Origin: Gemmatimonadaceae bacterium
GTDB taxonomy: Bacteria; Gemmatimonadota; Gemmatimonadetes; Gemmatimonadales; Gemmatimonadaceae
Direction: 5' to 3'
Assembly (NCBI GenBank): GCA_040882285.1
Contig: JBBEBQ010000008.1
Location: 1-64,000, forward strand
Length of the DNA stretch: 64,000 nt
Shown here: positions 16,325 to 25,883 of the stretch, in pieces
How the letters are laid out: every line of letters starts with the position of its first letter
Numbering within the stretch: position 1 is the first letter of the stretch
Translations under genes and position numbers: made by a program
The notes under the pieces: model-generated
Database searches by the model: none
Seen by the model: the letters and a program-made list of their open reading frames with translations, nothing else
Told to the model about the DNA's origin: nothing

Positions 16325-16621
16325 CTACTCCCAGCTTTCCAGCACCGACCATTCCTCGCGTGAGAGCTCGATTCCCTCGGGAAATGTATCGGTGAAATGT
16401 TGCCGTAGCCGGGGGGCGTGCTTGGCGAGGTAGCTGTCCAGCTCCGCGCGGCTCCGCGCCTTGTATCGGATGCGGTAGCGGCCGGCCGCCGAGCGGCTGA
16501 AGCTTGCCGCGACGAACGCTCCGGTGCGCATCAGGTCGGGGATGTGCCGCTCGCGCATGTAGCGCTCGTACTCGTCGCACAGGTCGGGGCGAACAGTGGC
16601 GGTGATCTCGTAGGTCAGCAT
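16325..16621 (-). CDS. DUF4286 family protein
   Basis: A 98-residue protein matching DUF4286: MLTYEITATV start, YERYMRERHIPDLMRTG core and a LDSYLAKHAPRLRQ segment. It is probably a small alpha/beta dimeric-barrel protein. The ATG at 16621 is taken because the family begins exactly here; the longer open frame (to 16723) is low-quality coding. No function is established. Confidence 0.8.
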   Translation of the reverse strand: MLTYEITATVRPDLCDEYERYMRERHIPDLMRTGAFVAASFSRSAAGRYRIRYKARSRAELDSYLAKHAPRLRQHFTDTFPEGIELSREEWSVLESWE

Positions 16622-16735
16622 CGCATGATGTTCCAGTGATTGACTGCGCGGCTCACAACAGCGCCATGATGAGAAGCTTGAGGTAGTGTTCGCCGTGCTT
16701 CGAGCTCTTGGCGCCATTCGCATCGTGCTCGTGAT

Positions 16736-17284
16736 TCATTCTTCCCCCAGTACTTTCGACATGTAGATGTCCGGTTTTCCGCGGCCGTTCGCGTCCGGCA
16801 TGACGCCCGTCACGACGTATCCGAGCCTGCGGTAGAACAGGAACGGGTGCGACCTCCCCAGGTCCAGCAGCCCGGCTATGTGCCGGGGAAGGTCGTCATA
16901 CAGGCGGATGTGCGCCAGCGACGTCATCCCCGAATCGTCGTCGGTGCCGAGGGTCGCGGTGAGCGCGCCCCGGCGAGCCGCCTCCTGCTCGAACGAAGCC
17001 ACGAGCGCGCGGCCAATCCCGTGCCGGCGGCGATCCGAGCGCACCACCAGCGGATGCAGCTCCCACACGCGGCCATGGTACTCGGGCAGGCCGCCGATCC
17101 ACCCGAGGACGAGATCGCCCTCGATCGCGGCGCGGGCGAACCCGTCGCGAATCACGGCCGCCACCTCCTCGCGCGCCTTCTCGATCGACGGCCAGCCGCG
17201 CGGCTCTATGAACTCGTCCACCAGCATCACCGCCGCCTGCTCGCGAATACCGGCAGGCCCTTCCTCGAGATCGACGATCCGCAT
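16736..17284 (-). CDS. GNAT N-acetyltransferase
   Basis: A 182-residue Gcn5-related acetyltransferase. The acetyl-CoA site is seen as RSDRRRHGIGRALV (about 83-96), with FYRRLGYVVTG as the C-terminal beta-alpha element. It is somewhat like AAC(6')-type enzymes but the substrate cannot be fixed. It lies 5 bp after the HXXEE membrane protein gene on the same strand, so the two are probably co-transcribed. Confidence 0.8.
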   Translation of the reverse strand: MRIVDLEEGPAGIREQAAVMLVDEFIEPRGWPSIEKAREEVAAVIRDGFARAAIEGDLVLGWIGGLPEYHGRVWELHPLVVRSDRRRHGIGRALVASFEQEAARRGALTATLGTDDDSGMTSLAHIRLYDDLPRHIAGLLDLGRSHPFLFYRRLGYVVTGVMPDANGRGKPDIYMSKVLGEE

Positions 17285-17289
17285 CGGTA

Positions 17290-17793
17290 TTAGAAGAGGC
17301 GGGTACCGCGGAAGAGTATCATGTATCCGTGCGCGAGCATCGGCAGCGCGCCGATCACCACCGCGGTGGCCACCGCGGTTGGAGACAGGCGCCGCGTTCG
17401 CACGACGCGAGTGATAATGAGGGCGCTGAACGGCACGTACAGCAGCAGCGCCGTAATCACGCCCGGCGCATACCCTTTGTCGACGATCGCGCCCGCCGTG
17501 TGCAGCACGGCGTTACCGGCCATGACGAAGCCGATCCAGGTCAGCGCCAGGAAAGCCGAGGAGCGTGAGCGGCTCATCCAATGGAACAGCACTATCGCCA
17601 GCGTGATCAGAAGGCCGGTGACGTTCACCGTCCAGAAATCCGACTGCGTGATGTCGCGATCTATGTGCGCGTTGACCCAGGTGACGAAGCCGGGAGCTTC
17701 TTCGACGACGTGCGCTACGAATATGAGCGGCGCCGCGAGGAGGAGCCTATGGAAAGGCGTGGACGGCAGAGGTGAAAACCAGCTGGTCGCCAT
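17290..17793 (-). CDS. HXXEE-domain membrane protein
   Basis: A 167-residue inner-membrane protein with about five hydrophobic segments. The family-defining motif HVVEE is near residue 28 at the end of the first helix. HXXEE proteins have no proven function; the conserved His and Glu residues may bind metal. It precedes and probably shares a transcript with the GNAT gene. Confidence 0.75.
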   Translation of the reverse strand: MATSWFSPLPSTPFHRLLLAAPLIFVAHVVEEAPGFVTWVNAHIDRDITQSDFWTVNVTGLLITLAIVLFHWMSRSRSSAFLALTWIGFVMAGNAVLHTAGAIVDKGYAPGVITALLLYVPFSALIITRVVRTRRLSPTAVATAVVIGALPMLAHGYMILFRGTRLF

Positions 17794-17970
17794 GGCGCCA
17801 CTACTATAGGTAGTGGCGTGCGGCGGGGCGAGGGCCCAGCATCGGTCCTGCCCGTCGCGCCTCAGTCCACCGTCCGAAAAGCCAGTCGCTTCGCGAAGCT
17901 CTGGTTCGGAGGGGCTCCCTACTAGTTCTAGTAGTTACGCCCCCGCGGATTTGGAGGCAACGTTGATGTC

Positions 17971-20694
17971 ATGCCTTCAGCGCACGAGAAGCGCGTCGCG
18001 GTCATCGCCGTCCACGGCGTCGCCGACCAGAAGCCGGGCGACTCGCAGGCCGCAATCGCGGCGCTGCTCCTCAGCAGCACCGCCGCGAACGGACAGCCGC
18101 TGTACGAGCCGTTCGCCTCGCGCACGATCTCCGTTCCGCTCGAGCCGGCGTACGCCAAAGCCGCGGCGGCGGACATCACGCGCGCGGCGTATGAGGCGGG
18201 TGAATTCGAGCAAAGGCCGTCGCTCATGCGAAGCCTCACCGGCTGGTTCGATGAGTCGCCGGTCGGTTACCGTACGCTGCTGGCCGAGCAGCAATCGGTG
18301 GAACCTCCACCGTCGCAGGTCACAACAGAAGAGCAGGCGGCGGCGAGCAGGCTCGATGCCGGACTGGCATACATGCGCATGCTGCTCGCGCGCTACAAGC
18401 CGAAGATCGGCGCGCGCGCGTACAACACCGATCGGCGCGAGGGACGCCGCAAGGACGGCGACGGAGCGTCGGCGCGCACCGTCGACGTGTACGAGATGTA
18501 CTGGGCCGATCTCTCCACCCTCGGCAAGGATCCGTTCCGGTTCTTTTCGTCGCTGTATCAGCTCGTGCTGCACCTCTCCGAGCTGGGCAGACGCGCTCTG
18601 GAGGACGGGCTGACCGAGTTCTCGAATTTCCGGCGGTGGCGCTGGCTGCTCTGGTGCCAGGCGGTGTCGGTGCGGCAGCTCGCGGTCCCGATCCCGATCA
18701 TCAACCTGCTGCTGCTCGTGACGCTGCTCGGCGCGGTCCTCGTGCGCGTGCTCGGCGGCTCGATCGGAGAAGAGGGCCCGGCGAGCGTGGACCTCGCCAA
18801 CGCCCAGGGTGTGCGCGTCGCGGTGGTGCTCGCCGCGGTCGTCATCGCGATCGGAGCGATGTACGCATTCGCCGCGCCGCCGTCGCGCCCCCGGGTGCGC
18901 GACTGGTGGCCGCTGCCGGCGCTGGCGGCGCTGGCCGGCGCCGCGCTCGGCGTGGCGGGCATCCGCGTCATCGGCCGCGCGGACGTGGTGCTGATAACCG
19001 AATGGTGGCTGATCGCGTTCGCGCTCACCGAGATGATTTTGCGGAAGTACGACAAGGTGCGCCCGGGCGCGAGGAAGTTCGGGCGGGCGATGTTCCTCGC
19101 GACCGCGCTGCTGTTCGCGTGGGCGATGGTGGAAGCGTTCTCGAGCCGCGGACCCGCGGCGCGGGAGATCGAGTACGCCGCCTTCTGGGCGATGCAGATC
19201 CTGTTCATCGTGCTCAGCTTGATGTGGATCCTGCTGATTGCGAGCGCGATCGTGGCCTGGCTGTCGGGCTCGGCGGTGATTCGGTCGTTCAGCGGAGCGG
19301 AGCAGGCCCGCGCCAGCGCAGCGGTTCGTACGAGCCGGCTCTCGCTGGCGCTCTCCGCGTCCGCCATGCTCGCGCTGATCGTCATCGTATGGAGCGGCCT
19401 ACTCGCGTGGGGGCTCAGCTCGGTCAATGTCTTCGAGTGCATGCAGGTGGAGATGTTCCCGCCGCTCGCCGGCGCGGACTGGATGATCGCGACGCCGGAG
19501 TCGTTGCTGCGCTGGCTGGGCGACTGGCCCGACACGCGCTCGTGCCCGGGCATCACCGTGACGGTGCACGGCTACTTCCGCGCGGTCCTGCTCATGAGCA
19601 CCACGTCCGGGCTGCCGGTCGCTTTGCTGCTCGTCATGTTCTCCCTGCTGCTGCTGGTGTGGATGGCCGTACCTTCGGTGCGGCTCGAGAGCGAAGCGCC
19701 GAGCACGTGCACCAACGAGCAGTCGGAGCGCGTGGGGCTGTGGCTGTCGCGCGGGCTCGACGCGACGCGGATCGTGACCGTGGTGTGGTGGGCCGCGGTG
19801 TTCGTGGTGCTGGTCGTCTTCGCGGCGGGTGACAGCGCCGCGCGGCACGGGTGGCTGCAGTATCCGGCGCTGGCCTGGCTGTTCGAGACGAGCCGGGAGC
19901 TGGCGCTGCCGATCCTCCAGACGACGGGCTCGGTGATAGCCGCGTCCGCCGCGGCGCTGTTCTTCGGGATGGCGAAGTTCGGCGGCTCGGGGCTGGACGT
20001 GATGCTGGACGTGGACAACTACCTGCGCGAGCTGCCGCGGGAGAGCACGCCGCGCGCGCACATCGCCGAGCGGTACGTGTCGCTGCTGCGCGCGATCGCG
20101 AGCGACCGCTCGAGCGACGGCCGGCCGTACGACTCCGTGATAATCGTGGCGCACAGCCTCGGCGCGCTCATCAGCGCGGACCTGCTGCGCTACCTGAACT
20201 CCGAGAGCGAGGCGGGAAGGGGCGATCCCGCGCTGGCCGCGTTCGGCTTCGGCGAGCGAAAAGCGACGGCCGCCATTCCCATTCGTCTATTCACCATGGG
20301 GAATCCGATCCGGCAGCTGCTCAACCGGTTCTTCCCGCACCAGTATGTGTGGGTGCGGGCCGTGCCGGACAACGCGCTCGAGCCGGTTCCGCCGCTCCCG
20401 CCGGAGGAGGCGTGGCGGGTGAACCTCACACCCAGCCACGTAGCGCTCGGCGTGGAGCAGTGGAGCAACGCTTATCGGAGCGGCGACTACGTGGGGCGTG
20501 GGCTGTGGCAGGACGAGTGGTTCAGGCGCACCGAGTCGGCGCCGGATGCAGGCGCGTACCCCGAGCCGATCAAGGTCTTCTCGCGATCCGGCACGGAAGA
20601 GATGTGCATCGGTCTCGGCGCGCACACGCACTACTGGAACGAGACGGCGCCGGACGTGCGCGATCACCTCAACGGGCTGATCGCGAGCGCGTGA
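17971..20694 (+). CDS. large membrane alpha/beta hydrolase (lipase-like)
   Basis: A 907-residue protein that opens with an alpha/beta hydrolase first strand (VAVIAVHGVADQ, about 9-20), passes through roughly ten membrane segments (about 235-680), and returns to a nucleophile-elbow motif VIIVAHSLGA (about 725-734) with candidate Ser in AHSLG. A C-terminal PHQYVWV/HTHYW region may supply the catalytic His. A soluble VYEMYWADLS segment precedes the first helix. It could be a membrane-set lipase, phospholipase or thioesterase. It leads a three-gene operon with an exported nuclease (28 bp gap) and a trypsin-like protease (11 bp gap). The family is known only as uncharacterised proteins. Confidence 0.65.
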   Translation: MPSAHEKRVAVIAVHGVADQKPGDSQAAIAALLLSSTAANGQPLYEPFASRTISVPLEPAYAKAAAADITRAAYEAGEFEQRPSLMRSLTGWFDESPVGYRTLLAEQQSVEPPPSQVTTEEQAAASRLDAGLAYMRMLLARYKPKIGARAYNTDRREGRRKDGDGASARTVDVYEMYWADLSTLGKDPFRFFSSLYQLVLHLSELGRRALEDGLTEFSNFRRWRWLLWCQAVSVRQLAVPIPIINLLLLVTLLGAVLVRVLGGSIGEEGPASVDLANAQGVRVAVVLAAVVIAIGAMYAFAAPPSRPRVRDWWPLPALAALAGAALGVAGIRVIGRADVVLITEWWLIAFALTEMILRKYDKVRPGARKFGRAMFLATALLFAWAMVEAFSSRGPAAREIEYAAFWAMQILFIVLSLMWILLIASAIVAWLSGSAVIRSFSGAEQARASAAVRTSRLSLALSASAMLALIVIVWSGLLAWGLSSVNVFECMQVEMFPPLAGADWMIATPESLLRWLGDWPDTRSCPGITVTVHGYFRAVLLMSTTSGLPVALLLVMFSLLLLVWMAVPSVRLESEAPSTCTNEQSERVGLWLSRGLDATRIVTVVWWAAVFVVLVVFAAGDSAARHGWLQYPALAWLFETSRELALPILQTTGSVIAASAAALFFGMAKFGGSGLDVMLDVDNYLRELPRESTPRAHIAERYVSLLRAIASDRSSDGRPYDSVIIVAHSLGALISADLLRYLNSESEAGRGDPALAAFGFGERKATAAIPIRLFTMGNPIRQLLNRFFPHQYVWVRAVPDNALEPVPPLPPEEAWRVNLTPSHVALGVEQWSNAYRSGDYVGRGLWQDEWFRRTESAPDAGAYPEPIKVFSRSGTEEMCIGLGAHTHYWNETAPDVRDHLNGLIASA

Positions 20695-20722
20695 GCGAAA
20701 TGACATTCAGCGAGAGGTGGTC

Positions 20723-21676
20723 ATGAAAGGGTTCGAATTCCGTCGAGCAGCTGCGTGGAGCTCCGGCTCCGGCGCGAGCAGAATCTTCCTCGCGCTGCTG
20801 CTCTCCGCGTCGTGGGGCTGCGCCGCGGCGAAACCGACAGTCGCCATCCGGCCCGCGATCGGCACGACCTACTCGGAGCAGCAGGCGGGGCTCTCTCCAG
20901 CCGATCAGGCTCGGCTGGACGCGCAGTGTCCGCTGGGGCAGCCGCGGCTGCGGCGCGCGGAAGACTTCGGCATTACGTACATCGTCACGCGCGACGGCTA
21001 TGCGCTGGAGGCGAGCGAGAAGGACCGGATCCCGATCTGGGTGTGCGAGCGGGTCACGCGGTATCAGGTAACGGGTCCGCTCACCGGCGAGCGCGTGAAG
21101 TTTCGCGCCGACCCGCTGCTGCCCGTCGAAGCGCGCGCCGTAGACAAGGACTACACCAGGTCGGGCTATGACCGCGGTCATCAGGCGCCGTTGGCGAATC
21201 AGCGCCGGAGCCAGCGCCTGCGCGACGAGACTTTCTTCCTGTCGAACGCGGTGCCGCAGAACTCGCGGCTGAATCGGCAGGCGTGGGCCGCGCTGGAGGA
21301 GCGCGTCCGCGATTGGGCCGAAGCGCGCGACACGATCTACTCGATCACCGGTCCGCTGTTCTGGGATCCGCGGGAGGACGATCCGTCGACTGCGCGCGGC
21401 TACGTCGAATACGAGTGGATCGGCAGGGGCGTGAGCGTGCCGACGCACCTGTACAAGATCATCATCGGACGGAAGCGCGACGGCGACGGCTGGGAATCCG
21501 TCGCGTTCGTGTTTCCCAACAAGCCGTACGACAAGACGGTGGACTTCAACGAGTTCATACGACCGGTCGCGTGGGTGCAGCGCCGAGCGGGGATCACCTT
21601 CTTCCCGGAGTTGCCGGGCGGCCAGGCGCCGGCGGTGATCAACAACGCCGGCCCGCTGTGGGACCCGCGCGAGTAA
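20723..21676 (+). CDS. exported DNA/RNA non-specific endonuclease (NUC1/DRGH family)
   Basis: A 317-residue beta-beta-alpha-Me nuclease. The catalytic DRGH motif is in GYDRGHQAPLANQ (about 152-164), followed by the metal-binding Asn region FFLSNAVPQNSRLN. The N-terminus has a hydrophobic export segment ending at WGC, giving a possible, non-canonical lipobox. Such enzymes cut single- and double-stranded DNA and RNA without sequence choice. The ATG at 20723 is preferred to the GTG at 20717 because GAGAGG lies 5 nt upstream. It sits between the hydrolase and the protease gene in a tight operon. No immunity protein is evident. Confidence 0.85.
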   Translation: MKGFEFRRAAAWSSGSGASRIFLALLLSASWGCAAAKPTVAIRPAIGTTYSEQQAGLSPADQARLDAQCPLGQPRLRRAEDFGITYIVTRDGYALEASEKDRIPIWVCERVTRYQVTGPLTGERVKFRADPLLPVEARAVDKDYTRSGYDRGHQAPLANQRRSQRLRDETFFLSNAVPQNSRLNRQAWAALEERVRDWAEARDTIYSITGPLFWDPREDDPSTARGYVEYEWIGRGVSVPTHLYKIIIGRKRDGDGWESVAFVFPNKPYDKTVDFNEFIRPVAWVQRRAGITFFPELPGGQAPAVINNAGPLWDPRE

Positions 21677-21687
21677 CGGAGGATCAC

Positions 21688-22299
21688 GTGCCGCAAGCGC
21701 CACTGGTCAGCGGATCGAAGATCGTCAACGGGCGAACCGGGAGTCCTGGCACGCTCGGCTTCGTCGGGGTCGGGCCGGGCAACGAACATGTTCTCGTGAG
21801 CTGTTATCACGTGCTCGGCAGGACCCGGGGTGCGACCGAGCCGCCGAGCGACGGCGAGCCGATCTGGCAGCCGGGTAGCGAGCTCACGAGCGAGATGATC
21901 GCGTTGACCAGGCTGGCGATGATGAACGCGCGGTTCGACGTCGCTGCCGCGCCGCTACTCCCCGGCGTTCCCGTCGCGCCCGAGATCCGGACGCTCGGTC
22001 CGATACGGGGTGTCGCTGACGCTGTCGAAGGCATGCGCGTCCTCAAGTTCGGCGCCGAGACCGGACTGACAGCGGGCGTGATCAGCTATGCCGGCGAGAC
22101 GCTGATCGAGATCGCGCCGGATCCGGACGCGGCGGAGGAATACGTCCTAACCGAGCATGGCGACTCCGGCGCGCTCTGGGTCAGCCCCGGCGGGGAGGTC
22201 ATCGCGATGCACTTTCAGGGCAGGGACGGGAACCGCGCGTACGCGCGGCCGCTGCCGTTCGTGCTGGCAACACTGGGCCTCAGCTTGCTCACAAACTGA
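21688..22299 (+). CDS. trypsin-like serine peptidase
   Basis: A 203-residue protein with a chymotrypsin-fold triad in order: His in VSCYHVLG (about residue 39), Asp in RFDVAAAPL (about 81) and Ser in HGDSGALW (about 160). It lacks a signal peptide, so it is cytoplasmic unless exported otherwise. A GTG at 21688 is the start: CGGAGG lies 6 nt upstream and the longer frame overlaps the nuclease gene. It is the third gene of the membrane hydrolase/nuclease/protease operon. The family is often annotated as trypsin-like or Nal1-like peptidase of unknown target. Confidence 0.7.
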   Translation: MPQAPLVSGSKIVNGRTGSPGTLGFVGVGPGNEHVLVSCYHVLGRTRGATEPPSDGEPIWQPGSELTSEMIALTRLAMMNARFDVAAAPLLPGVPVAPEIRTLGPIRGVADAVEGMRVLKFGAETGLTAGVISYAGETLIEIAPDPDAAEEYVLTEHGDSGALWVSPGGEVIAMHFQGRDGNRAYARPLPFVLATLGLSLLTN

Positions 22300-22350
22300 A
22301 TCTGCTCCAGGGATGCCTGAACCTCGCTCGTAGCCACGCCCCTGACGTCA

Positions 22351-22713
22351 CTATCCCCCCGGGCCGGTATACGAGCACCCCGATGTGCATGTCTCGCGGA
22401 TCACGATGCGCGAGAGCCCCGGGAGCGACGGGCGCAGCCGGTCCCAGATCCAGATCGCCAGATTCTCCGACGTGGGATTCTCCAGCCCCTCGATCTCGTT
22501 CAGGTAGCGATGATCGAGCTGGTCGACGATCGGCTTCACCGCCGTCTTGATCTCGGCGAAGTCGAGTACCCAGCCGAGCGTGGGATCGAGCGGTCCGCTG
22601 ACGTGAACCTCGCAGCGAAACGAGTGGCCGTGCAGCCGGAAGCATTTGTGCCCCGGGGGCACGTTCGGCAGCCGGTGCGCTGCCTCGAAGCCGAACTCCT
22701 TGAAGATCTCCAT
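22351..22713 (-). CDS. queD: 6-carboxytetrahydropterin synthase QueD
   Basis: A 120-residue PTPS/QueD enzyme of queuosine synthesis, turning dihydroneopterin triphosphate into 6-carboxy-tetrahydropterin. Zinc-ligand histidines are in AAHRLP and HGHSF, the catalytic Cys is in HKCFRLHGH, and LDHRYLN plus PTSENLA follow. A final Glu is in RETCTSGC. It lies 14 bp after the SDR gene on the same strand. An alternative name is 6-pyruvoyl-tetrahydropterin synthase; the CxxxHGH spacing favours QueD. Confidence 0.85.
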
Positions 22714-22727
22714 GCGAGGATTTCGCT

Positions 22728-23447
22728 CTACTTCTTCGGCGGGCGCGACGGCCGCAGCTCCACGCGGCTCGGCAAGCTGCGGTCCGGCTGTGCGAGCAGA
22801 TCCATCACTACGCGCGCGACGTCATCCGGCGTGAGCATCCAGTTCGTGTCGCTCGCGCCGGGCGTCCGGAACTCCGTCGCGACGGAGCCGGGCAGGACGC
22901 AGCAGACGCGGATCCCGTCGTGCCGCACCTCCTGCATCAGCGTCTCGCTGAACATGTTCAACCCCGCCTTCGACGCGCCGTACGCCGCGCCGCCGACGAA
23001 CGGGTTCTTCCCCGCGAGGCTGCTGATGTTGATGATCCACCCGCCGCCGCGCTTTCGCAGCTTGGGGATCGCCGCGCTGCAACAGTAGAACACGCCGGTG
23101 AGATTCGTGTCGAGCATGCGCTGCCAGTCCGCATCGCTCGTATCGGCGACGTTGGCGAAGATGCCGACGCCGGCGTTGTTGATCAGGATGTCGAGCCCGC
23201 CGAAGCGGCTGACCGCGGTGGCGATCAGCCGATCCACGTCCGCGCGCTTACGGACGTCGGCGCGCACGGTCTCGAGCCGCTTCTCCCCCGTTCGCAGCGT
23301 GCGGCGCGCGGCATCGAGGCGCGACTGATTTGTGCCGCAGATGACGACGTTGGCGCCGGCGTTCAACAGCGCGGCGGTGATCGCGAGCCCGATGCCGCGA
23401 GAGCCGCCGGTCACCACGGCGGTCGTCGAATCGAGCTGGAGAGTCAT
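22728..23447 (-). CDS. short-chain dehydrogenase/reductase
   Basis: A 239-residue classical SDR. The cofactor site is TGGSRGIG (about 14-21), with NNAG (about 89-92), the catalytic Ser in INISS and the YxxxK pair in YGASKAG. It reduces or oxidises a carbonyl/alcohol with NAD(P)H; the substrate is unknown. The ATG at 23447 has AGGAG 5 nt upstream. It is followed 14 bp later by queD, so a link to pterin reduction is possible but not shown. Confidence 0.85.
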
Positions 23448-23454
23448 CGCTCTC

Positions 23455-25266
23455 CTATTGTACCACCTGGCGTGCCGCGCGCACACCGACGGCCGCCCCG
23501 CCGCGCCGCGGATCCGCGACGCCCACGAGCCTCCCGTCCGGCAGCACGATGATCGTCTGCGTGTCGCCCTGGTAGCCCGAGCGCGTGCGAACCGCGTGGC
23601 CGCGGGCGCGCAGCTCGACCACCGTCTCCTCGCGTATCCCCGCGCGCTCGTAGAAGAGCGTGTCCGGCAGGTGCTGGTGGTGCAGCCGCGGCGCGGCGGT
23701 GGCGCTGCCGGCGTCCATGTCGAAGTCCACGACGTTCGAGATGATCTGCGCGACCGTCGTGATGATCGTCGGTCCGCCGGGCGAGCCGGTGATGAGCTTC
23801 ACGCGCCCCGCGGGATCGAGCACGACCGTCGGCGTCATTGCCGAGAGCATGCGCTTGCCCGGCTCGATGGCGTTGGCCTCGCCCTGCACGAGCCCGAACT
23901 GGTTCGGCGTGCCAGGCAGCGCGGCGAAGTCGTCCATTTCGTTGTTCAGCAGGAAGCCCGCGCCGGCGACGGTGACGAGATTGCCGTACAGCGAATTGAT
24001 CGTGGTGGTGACGGCGACCGCGTTGCCGCCGCGGTCGATGATCGAGTAGTGCGTGGTGTTCTCACCCTCGCGGCGGGCAGTGCGCGCGGTCCGCGCGAAC
24101 GGGCCCAGTCCCGGAAGGACGCGCGCCGAAGGCGTAGCGCGATCGATGTCGATCTCCGCGCGCTTCCGCAGCGCGTACTCCTCCGAGATCAGCTCGCGCG
24201 TGGGCTGCGGCACGAAGTCGGGGTCGGCGAGATACTCGTTCCGGTCCACGAACGCGCGCTTCGCGGCTTCCGTCCACAGGTGCACGTGATCGGGCGAGTG
24301 GTAGCCGAGCGAGCGGAGGTCGAAGCCCTCGAGCGTGTTGAGGATCTGCGCGAGCGTGATCCCGCCGGACGACGGGGGCGGCATCGAGATGACCGTGTGC
24401 TCGCGGTACTCGAACACGATCGGATCGCGCCAGGGTGCGTCGTACGCGGCGAGATCCTCCCGGGTCATGATGCCGCCGCCGCGCCGCATCTCGGCTTCGA
24501 TCAGCTCCGCCGTCTCCCCGCGGTAGAAGCCGTCCTTGCCGTCGCGCGCGATGCGGCGGAGCGTCGCCGCCATGTCGCGCTGCACGAGCCGGTCGCCGAC
24601 GCGCGGCGGCTGGCTGTCCACGAGGAAGATCGCGGCGGTGGCGGGGAAGCGTCGGAGATCCTCGACGTTCGACTGGAGCGAGCGCGCGAGCCGCGCGTGC
24701 ACGACGATCCCCTCGGCCAGATTGATCGCGGGCTGCACGAGCTCGGCCCACGGGAGGGAGCCGAAGCGCTTGTGCGCTTCCCACATCCCCGCGACCGATC
24801 CGGGCACGCCGGCGGCGAGATGTCCGACGAGTGCGCGCTCGCTCACCGCGCCGGTCGAGTCGAGGTACATGTCGCGCGTGGCGGCGAGCGGCGCCTTCTC
24901 GCGGAAGTCGAGCGCCGCGGTCGTGCCGTCCGCGAGGCGGACGATCATGAAGCCGCCGCCGCCGATGTTGCCCGCTTCCGGATTCGCGACCGCGAGCGCG
25001 AAGTGCGTCGCCACCGCGGCGTCGACCGCGTTCCCGCCGCGGCGCAGCACCTCGGCGCCGACCTCGCTCGCGACGCGGTCGGTGGTGGAGACCATCCCGT
25101 CGGTGCCGTAGGTCGGGACTACCTGGTCGGCGGGGAATGCCCAGCCGGCGGGCGCGAGCGTCGTGTCCGAGGGGCGCAGGTTGCCGGAGCACGCGCCCGT
25201 GGCGACGAGCGCGCCGCAGGCACACGCGAGGAAGAACAGTGCAAGTTTTCGCATCGGTAGTCTCAT
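23455..25266 (-). CDS. ggt: gamma-glutamyltransferase
   Basis: A 603-residue exported gamma-glutamyl transpeptidase/hydrolase that cleaves glutathione and related amides. The N-terminal hydrophobic segment ends near TGAC, a possible but weak lipobox. The large-subunit region has GGNAVDAAVA and NIGGGGFM. The autocleavage nucleophile is the second Thr of ENTTHYS (about residue 405), and the small subunit carries the GSPGGPTI loop. Length is normal for the family. An ATG at 25254 (MRKLALFF) is an equally good start. It is followed 8 bp later by the SDR gene. Confidence 0.9.
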   Translation of the reverse strand: MRLPMRKLALFFLACACGALVATGACSGNLRPSDTTLAPAGWAFPADQVVPTYGTDGMVSTTDRVASEVGAEVLRRGGNAVDAAVATHFALAVANPEAGNIGGGGFMIVRLADGTTAALDFREKAPLAATRDMYLDSTGAVSERALVGHLAAGVPGSVAGMWEAHKRFGSLPWAELVQPAINLAEGIVVHARLARSLQSNVEDLRRFPATAAIFLVDSQPPRVGDRLVQRDMAATLRRIARDGKDGFYRGETAELIEAEMRRGGGIMTREDLAAYDAPWRDPIVFEYREHTVISMPPPSSGGITLAQILNTLEGFDLRSLGYHSPDHVHLWTEAAKRAFVDRNEYLADPDFVPQPTRELISEEYALRKRAEIDIDRATPSARVLPGLGPFARTARTARREGENTTHYSIIDRGGNAVAVTTTINSLYGNLVTVAGAGFLLNNEMDDFAALPGTPNQFGLVQGEANAIEPGKRMLSAMTPTVVLDPAGRVKLITGSPGGPTIITTVAQIISNVVDFDMDAGSATAAPRLHHQHLPDTLFYERAGIREETVVELRARGHAVRTRSGYQGDTQTIIVLPDGRLVGVADPRRGGAAVGVRAARQVVQ

Positions 25267-25316: not shown

Positions 25317-25883
25317 TCAGACCGGCTCGGACTCGCGCCGAATCCGCGCCAGCTCCTGCTCGACGCCGAGGAAGGTCGACCATTCGGCGAGATAATCCTG
25401 GTCGAGGCGGGAGTGTTGAACCTCGTAGACCCGAAGCGCATCGCCATACAGCTTCTCGCTCCCGCCGGAAAGGCTCGCCCAGCGGAGCTTCTGCAGAATC
25501 GTGTCCTCGGGCGCCGAAACCTTGAGGCGCGTGCCGAACACGTCCTCCTCGTATTTCCGCGCGAAGCGGCTCCGGTCGTACGCGTCATCGGTGAGGAGCC
25601 AGAAATCGACTTTGTCTCCCTCAGCGGTCTCGATCACGTTGAAACCGGTTCGATCCCGCACCGCCTCCCGCACCGCGGAATCGTCGTGATAGAACTCGGG
25701 AGTCGGGAATGCAGCGAGCAGCGCCGGCACCGAGCTGTCGTCCACCTCGACCACCACATCCAGATCATGCGTCGCGCGAGGCTCGCCCTGGAGACTCGAT
25801 GCGACGGAGCCGGTGATCATGTAATCGATCCCGATCCGCTCCAGCGCGGCGACGACCCGCTTCAGTAAATCCTGTTGTGACAT
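25317..25883 (-). CDS. MNT-type nucleotidyltransferase (DUF6036-like), copy 1
   Basis: A 188-residue nucleotidyltransferase-fold protein. The active-site motif is visible as GSVASS followed by RATHDLDVVVE (about 26-48), with a further Asp in KVDFWLL. Such proteins may transfer nucleotides or serve as antitoxins. Its start overlaps the small upstream gene by 22 bp, so the two form a unit. A paralogous unit with the same gene order is at 35308-36104. Confidence 0.7.
   Translation of the reverse strand: MSQQDLLKRVVAALERIGIDYMITGSVASSLQGEPRATHDLDVVVEVDDSSVPALLAAFPTPEFYHDDSAVREAVRDRTGFNVIETAEGDKVDFWLLTDDAYDRSRFARKYEEDVFGTRLKVSAPEDTILQKLRWASLSGGSEKLYGDALRVYEVQHSRLDQDYLAEWSTFLGVEQELARIRRESEPV

Follow-up and report, generated by a model that had tools for sequence, protein, structure and literature searches.

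Introduction

Nucleases paired with trypsin-like proteases recur in bacterial immunity, as in HamM/HamA, Avs1, Lamassu, DRT and canu; they are common parts of several immune systems, with one nuclease fold used throughout (PMC12799240). In these pairs, insertions block the active site of the nuclease, a proenzyme of the MBL fold, and the trypsin domain is joined in one polypeptide to a core defence protein (PMC12799240). A related theme is found in LypC, in which a trypsin-like peptidase is fused to a NucA-type endonuclease, and in the CARD-NLR systems, which employ phospholipases or endonucleases as death effectors (PMC13236601).

In this report, we describe a three-gene unit, A-B-C, that resembles these systems part by part and is a member of neither. 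It lies in a 64,000-nucleotide stretch of DNA (hereafter “the window”) from a Gemmatimonadaceae MAG of 2.89 Mb that is 96.6% complete. As in the pairs of PMC12799240, a nuclease gene is found directly 5' of a trypsin-like protease gene, and the two are co-inherited in changing genomic settings with a link to defence. Unlike those pairs, the nuclease B is of the EndoG/NucA type (PF01223) rather than MBL and bears no comparable insertion, the protease C stands alone instead of being fused to another protein, and a lipase, A, is added. The unit shares with LypABC and the CARD-NLR systems (PMC13236601) a trypsin-like peptidase, a NucA-type endonuclease and lipase-type effector parts, but it has no NLR, CARD or ATPase protein, its enzymes are encoded by separate genes, and its lipase is a membrane protein. 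The different nuclease fold, the stand-alone protease and the missing sensor thus place it outside both groups. Its parts are known from bacterial immunity, as protease-nuclease pairs and as phospholipase effectors. The combination of lipase, nuclease and protease was not found described in the literature searched, and the literature on CBASS with B's type of nuclease, or on DUF2235 with trypsin, contained no such trio.

Results

The operon and its surroundings

The three genes form an isolated unit at positions 17971-22299 on the + strand (Table 1). The preliminary description had taken them for one operon with 28 bp between A and B and 11 bp between B and C, and the ORF coordinates agree. 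An alternative GTG start for B is present at 20717, and the ribosome-binding site of C is clear. No sigma-70 consensus was found in the 177-bp region upstream of A. Comparison with the sister species shows purifying selection on A, B and C (dN/dS of 0.15, 0.17 and 0.21, respectively).

Table 1. Features of the A-B-C locus (window coordinates)
Feature	Position	Strand	Remarks
HXXEE gene, divergent from A	17290-17793	-	
Divergent intergenic region 5' of A, presumed promoter region	17794..17970	.	177 bp; between HXXEE gene and A
A: membrane serine hydrolase, alpha/beta-hydrolase type	17971..20694	+	907 aa; ORF
B: EndoG/NucA-type DNA/RNA non-specific nuclease	20723..21676	+	317 aa, ATG; PF01223
C: trypsin-fold serine protease	21688..22299	+	203 aa, GTG start after GGAGG
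PTPS gene, convergent to C	22351-22713	-	

The operon had been described as having no immunity, secretion or metabolic gene near it. With respect to metabolism this does not hold, as PTPS, SDR, gamma-glutamyltranspeptidase and GNAT genes flank it on the opposite strand. The unit contains no candidate immunity gene. Among ten window neighbours of the operon, PADLOC found neither a CD-NTase nor any other defence gene. The unit consists of A, B and C only, with no NLR-like ATPase or CARD-bearing partner, and its neighbours are metabolic; no sensor gene is present in the window copy. Window positions 25317-25883 encode a protein of 188 aa that, from its sequence, resembles a small nucleotidyltransferase of the toxin/abortive-infection type and has no PADLOC match.

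In the window, the segment bounded by the 132-aa/HXXEE genes and the gamma-glutamyltranspeptidase gene contains A-B-C, PTPS and SDR. The matching interval holds two other genes in one related genome (G003) and, in another (G002), PPK2-like and rhomboid-like genes, all named from reading their sequences; a third (G001) carries A-B-C with the same left flank as the window. Because gene content there differs among the genomes of the window's genus, the location of A-B-C is an accessory site. The stretch at 16325-25266, from the 132-aa gene to the gamma-glutamyltranspeptidase gene, has the variable content of an insertion hot spot, with no visible integrase.

Three hydrolases with intact motifs

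Active sites against three polymer types (ester or lipid, nucleic acid and protein) had been proposed for the three enzymes, a proposal supported by intact motifs, the PF01223 match of B, the S1 profile match of C and the invariant residues of A. B is an Endonuclease_NS protein (PF01223, E=2.6e-44; 152 bits against a curated cut-off of 23). Its DRGH motif is at residues 150-153, and the metal-binding asparagine of the LN..AW motif, N184, aligns with that of EndoG; both are invariant in three orthologs. The closest solved structures are those of EndoG (PDB, E=4e-38). The alignment of residues 83-297 with EndoG has only short gaps, and no insertion that would block the active site is visible, although the N-terminal region may still play a role. 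The hydrophobic N-terminus of B ends at Cys33, a lipoprotein-type signal, and this cysteine is invariant. The lipobox is a canonical FISGC in the B protein of another genus (see below) and non-canonical in the window copy.

C, as a single sequence, has a match to Trypsin_2 that falls short of the cut-off (E=0.011), and a profile built from three orthologs matches the S1 alkaline/alpha-lytic proteases (E=9.5e-5). The triad H41, D84 and S160, in the order His-Asp-Ser and with the serine in GDSG, is invariant in three orthologs. C has no signal peptide. A structure model from the single sequence reached a pLDDT of 31.5, too low to be informative. Distant profile matches are other trypsin-fold proteins that occur without B, several of them NAL1-like and longer than C. 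These NAL1-like proteases are distant relatives from which C differs in lacking their N-terminal domain and in being paired with a nuclease. At one other locus (L105, G245:C173, 6921-9531), a gene for an LpxR-type lipid A deacylase is followed directly by a gene for a C-like trypsin-fold protein and one for a membrane protein; here again a lipid hydrolase is beside a C-like protease, this time without a nuclease.

A has no match over its whole length to any family in Pfam, NCBIfam, PHROG or PADLOC. Across 14 homologs, H15-G16, S729 (in AH-S-[LQ]-G), D839 and H885 are invariant. A therefore has the nucleophile elbow, with conserved Asp and His C-terminal to it, that characterizes the alpha/beta-hydrolases; S729, D839 and H885 are a candidate Ser-Asp-His triad, and H15-G16 would be the HG oxyanion motif expected of such enzymes. 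About ten membrane helices had been noted between the two halves of the hydrolase, a number that agrees well with our count: nine exceed the hydropathy cut (residues 243-619, between the HG motif and the AHSLG elbow) and a tenth is likely near 645-670, so that the membrane part spans ~243 to ~670. An AF2 model of A is of low confidence overall (mean pLDDT 52.7), with pLDDT values of 70-86 in the core segments and the strand order as expected. In the better parts of this model, strands at residues 7-15 and 150-177 precede the helices, which are followed by a strand at 722-728, the elbow helix at 730-747 and strands at 771-776 and 874-881. Because neither half of A holds a full hydrolase core alone, the most economical reading is a single core split in two, and a single active site formed by the VHG and AHSLG parts would fit the order of elements in the model. 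A Foldseek search with it gave no significant match. The A homologs match Tle3, DUF676 and DUF900 weakly at the nucleophile elbow, over ~30 residues.

Tle1 and Tle3 are lipase families of the T6SS. Unlike Tle1 (PF09994) and Tle3 (PF24322), with the latter of which the A homologs share only the weak elbow match, A has 9-10 membrane helices within its hydrolase part and no full-length family match, and no T6SS was found. A search of the 96.6% complete host MAG for VipA/TssB gave no match, while the control search was positive in E. coli; the idea of a T6SS effector thus found no support.

Distribution and a CBASS-linked locus in another genus

The genome scans comprised at most ~1,400 look-ups, some of them repeats, together with plasmid, phage and viral collections. 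Among 149 relatives, close matches to B occur only in G000, G001 and G076, and close matches to C in the same three. Orthologs of C were found in four of 179 Gemmatimonadaceae (these three and G325), and no homolog of comparable closeness was found in 398 Pseudomonadota. Close homologs of either protein were found only in company with the other, in two of the four genomes of the window's genus and in one other genus. Searches of the plasmid, phage and viral-contig collections for C, and of viral contigs for B, returned nothing; the B protein of the other genus matched only distant endonucleases on plasmids.

In the other genus, B and C are again adjacent and share 55% and 46% identity, respectively, with the window proteins. 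Two genomes (G076 and G325; loci L070 and L103) carry them on a common 19.9-kb stretch with 99.98% identity, and we count these as one locus. That two species-level genomes share this defence region points to recent transfer or to cross-binning of contigs. The genes on one strand are, in order, CD-NTase, HORMA, TRIP13, SAVED-PDDEXK nuclease, a Tle1-like lipase, B and C. PDC-S47 and CapP-like genes precede this array, and genes for a tyrosine integrase and a serine recombinase come after it. A complete type III CBASS (CD-NTase, HORMA, TRIP13 and SAVED nuclease) thus lies directly upstream of lipase-B-C. No such system is found beside the window operon, and the three hydrolases match no PADLOC model of a CBASS effector. 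Searching the host genome for SAVED gave no hit, but the controls gave none either, so that this negative carries no weight. The lipase immediately upstream of B-C is a clear PF09994 protein (E=1.7e-76), so that the place of A is filled by a different lipase family; its gene starts ~70 bp past the SAVED gene and has its own ribosome-binding site.

The sister species, the one such species compared, retains the order A-B-C. The preliminary description had named scattering of the three genes in related genomes as a refutation, and this applies in part. B-C is a tight pair, but A is not bound to it: members of its family without an adjacent B or C occur in at least seven other Gemmatimonadaceae and in several Betaproteobacteria genomes, and a close C was found in none of the eight named genomes outside the family that were reached via A-family matches. 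In one genome (G018, L021), the A-family gene comes after an acyl-CoA synthetase gene. On a Cupriavidus megaplasmid (L072, 1722-6549), an A-family gene is near genes for a patatin-like phospholipase and for a CHAP-domain protein that also has a peptidoglycan-binding domain.

Discussion

The preliminary description left three roles open, namely nutrient scavenging, a lytic weapon and a cell-death system. In another genus, B-C follows a complete CBASS and a lipase other than A, an arrangement that suggests a defence or cell-death module and not a feeding set. Our preferred explanation, which we hold tentatively and at a little less than an even chance, is that A-B-C moves horizontally as an accessory cassette of effectors for cell death or defence. 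The lipase would attack the membrane of its own cell, the EndoG-like nuclease would degrade DNA, and the protease would control or complete the process; the outcome would be death of the infected cell or loss of the invader's DNA. As no sensor gene accompanies the window copy, its trigger would have to lie outside the cassette or be supplied by A, B or C itself. If active, the cassette would join an attack on lipids to the coupling of nuclease and protease. Cleavage and activation of B by C, on the pattern of the known pairs, is uncertain, because B appears to be exported and C does not, and because no blocking insertion is seen in B; an exported B and a cytosolic C would argue against simple proteolytic activation.

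Several observations weigh against a defence cassette. No defence gene is near the window locus, and the solitary A-family genes, one of them beside an acyl-CoA synthetase gene, would fit ordinary lipid turnover. Further, the inclusion of the lipase in the set rests on two independent loci, at both of which a lipase gene, of one of two families, is upstream of B-C. In the first alternative, B-C is a two-gene module that couples a protease to a nuclease, much as in the known pairs of MBL nuclease and trypsin, while A would be a passenger, or a lipase of no relation to it that chanced to lie upstream. The strict co-occurrence of B and C, the existence of A-family members on their own and the established nature of nuclease-protease pairs speak for such a module, but at both loci a lipase gene immediately precedes B-C in the same orientation, 28 bp ahead of B in the window, and the sister species keeps all three genes in order. 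We regard a bare B-C module as unlikely, if the strongest competitor.

Somewhat less probable again is that these are ordinary catabolic or maintenance hydrolases, serving nutrient scavenging or the turnover of membrane and nucleic acid. B does look like an exported lipoprotein, the window neighbours are metabolic, and the acyl-CoA synthetase gene ahead of one A-family gene would suit such a role. However, C lacks a signal peptide and is not a secreted protease, which disfavours scavenging in particular; the sporadic distribution, the variable site and the CBASS genes beside B-C in the other genus also speak against housekeeping.

EndoG is a mitochondrial death nuclease that acts on its release from mitochondria. 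A special form of the effector-cassette explanation builds on this likeness: as a lipoprotein, B would be held outside the cytoplasm and would gain access to the chromosome only once A had ruptured the inner membrane, with C acting in the cytosol. EndoG as the closest solved structure to B, the membrane lipase-like character of A and the conservation of the lipoprotein-type signal between genera are consistent with such a compartmental module. Yet the window lipobox is non-canonical, the likeness to EndoG may reflect only membership of PF01223, and both the release of B and the topology of A are predictions; we consider this form improbable. Were it true, the module would parallel in bacteria the release of EndoG; its lipases would be interchangeable, it could ride behind CBASS, and the cytosolic trypsin-like C would be its trigger or executioner.

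Least probable is a weapon against other cells, such as a set of T6SS-type lipase and nuclease effectors: the Tle1-like lipase of the other genus, the weak Tle3 elbow matches of the A homologs and the plasmid-borne A-family gene near a CHAP-domain protein recall such effectors, but a secreted weapon is disfavoured by the multi-helix membrane nature of A, the lack of a T6SS sheath gene in the host MAG and the lack of a candidate immunity gene in the unit.

The effector-cassette explanation remains the one that we prefer. As a separate observation on the host, its genome (L001, L002; G000:C5) encodes two CHAT (caspase-like) proteins of ~1000 residues.
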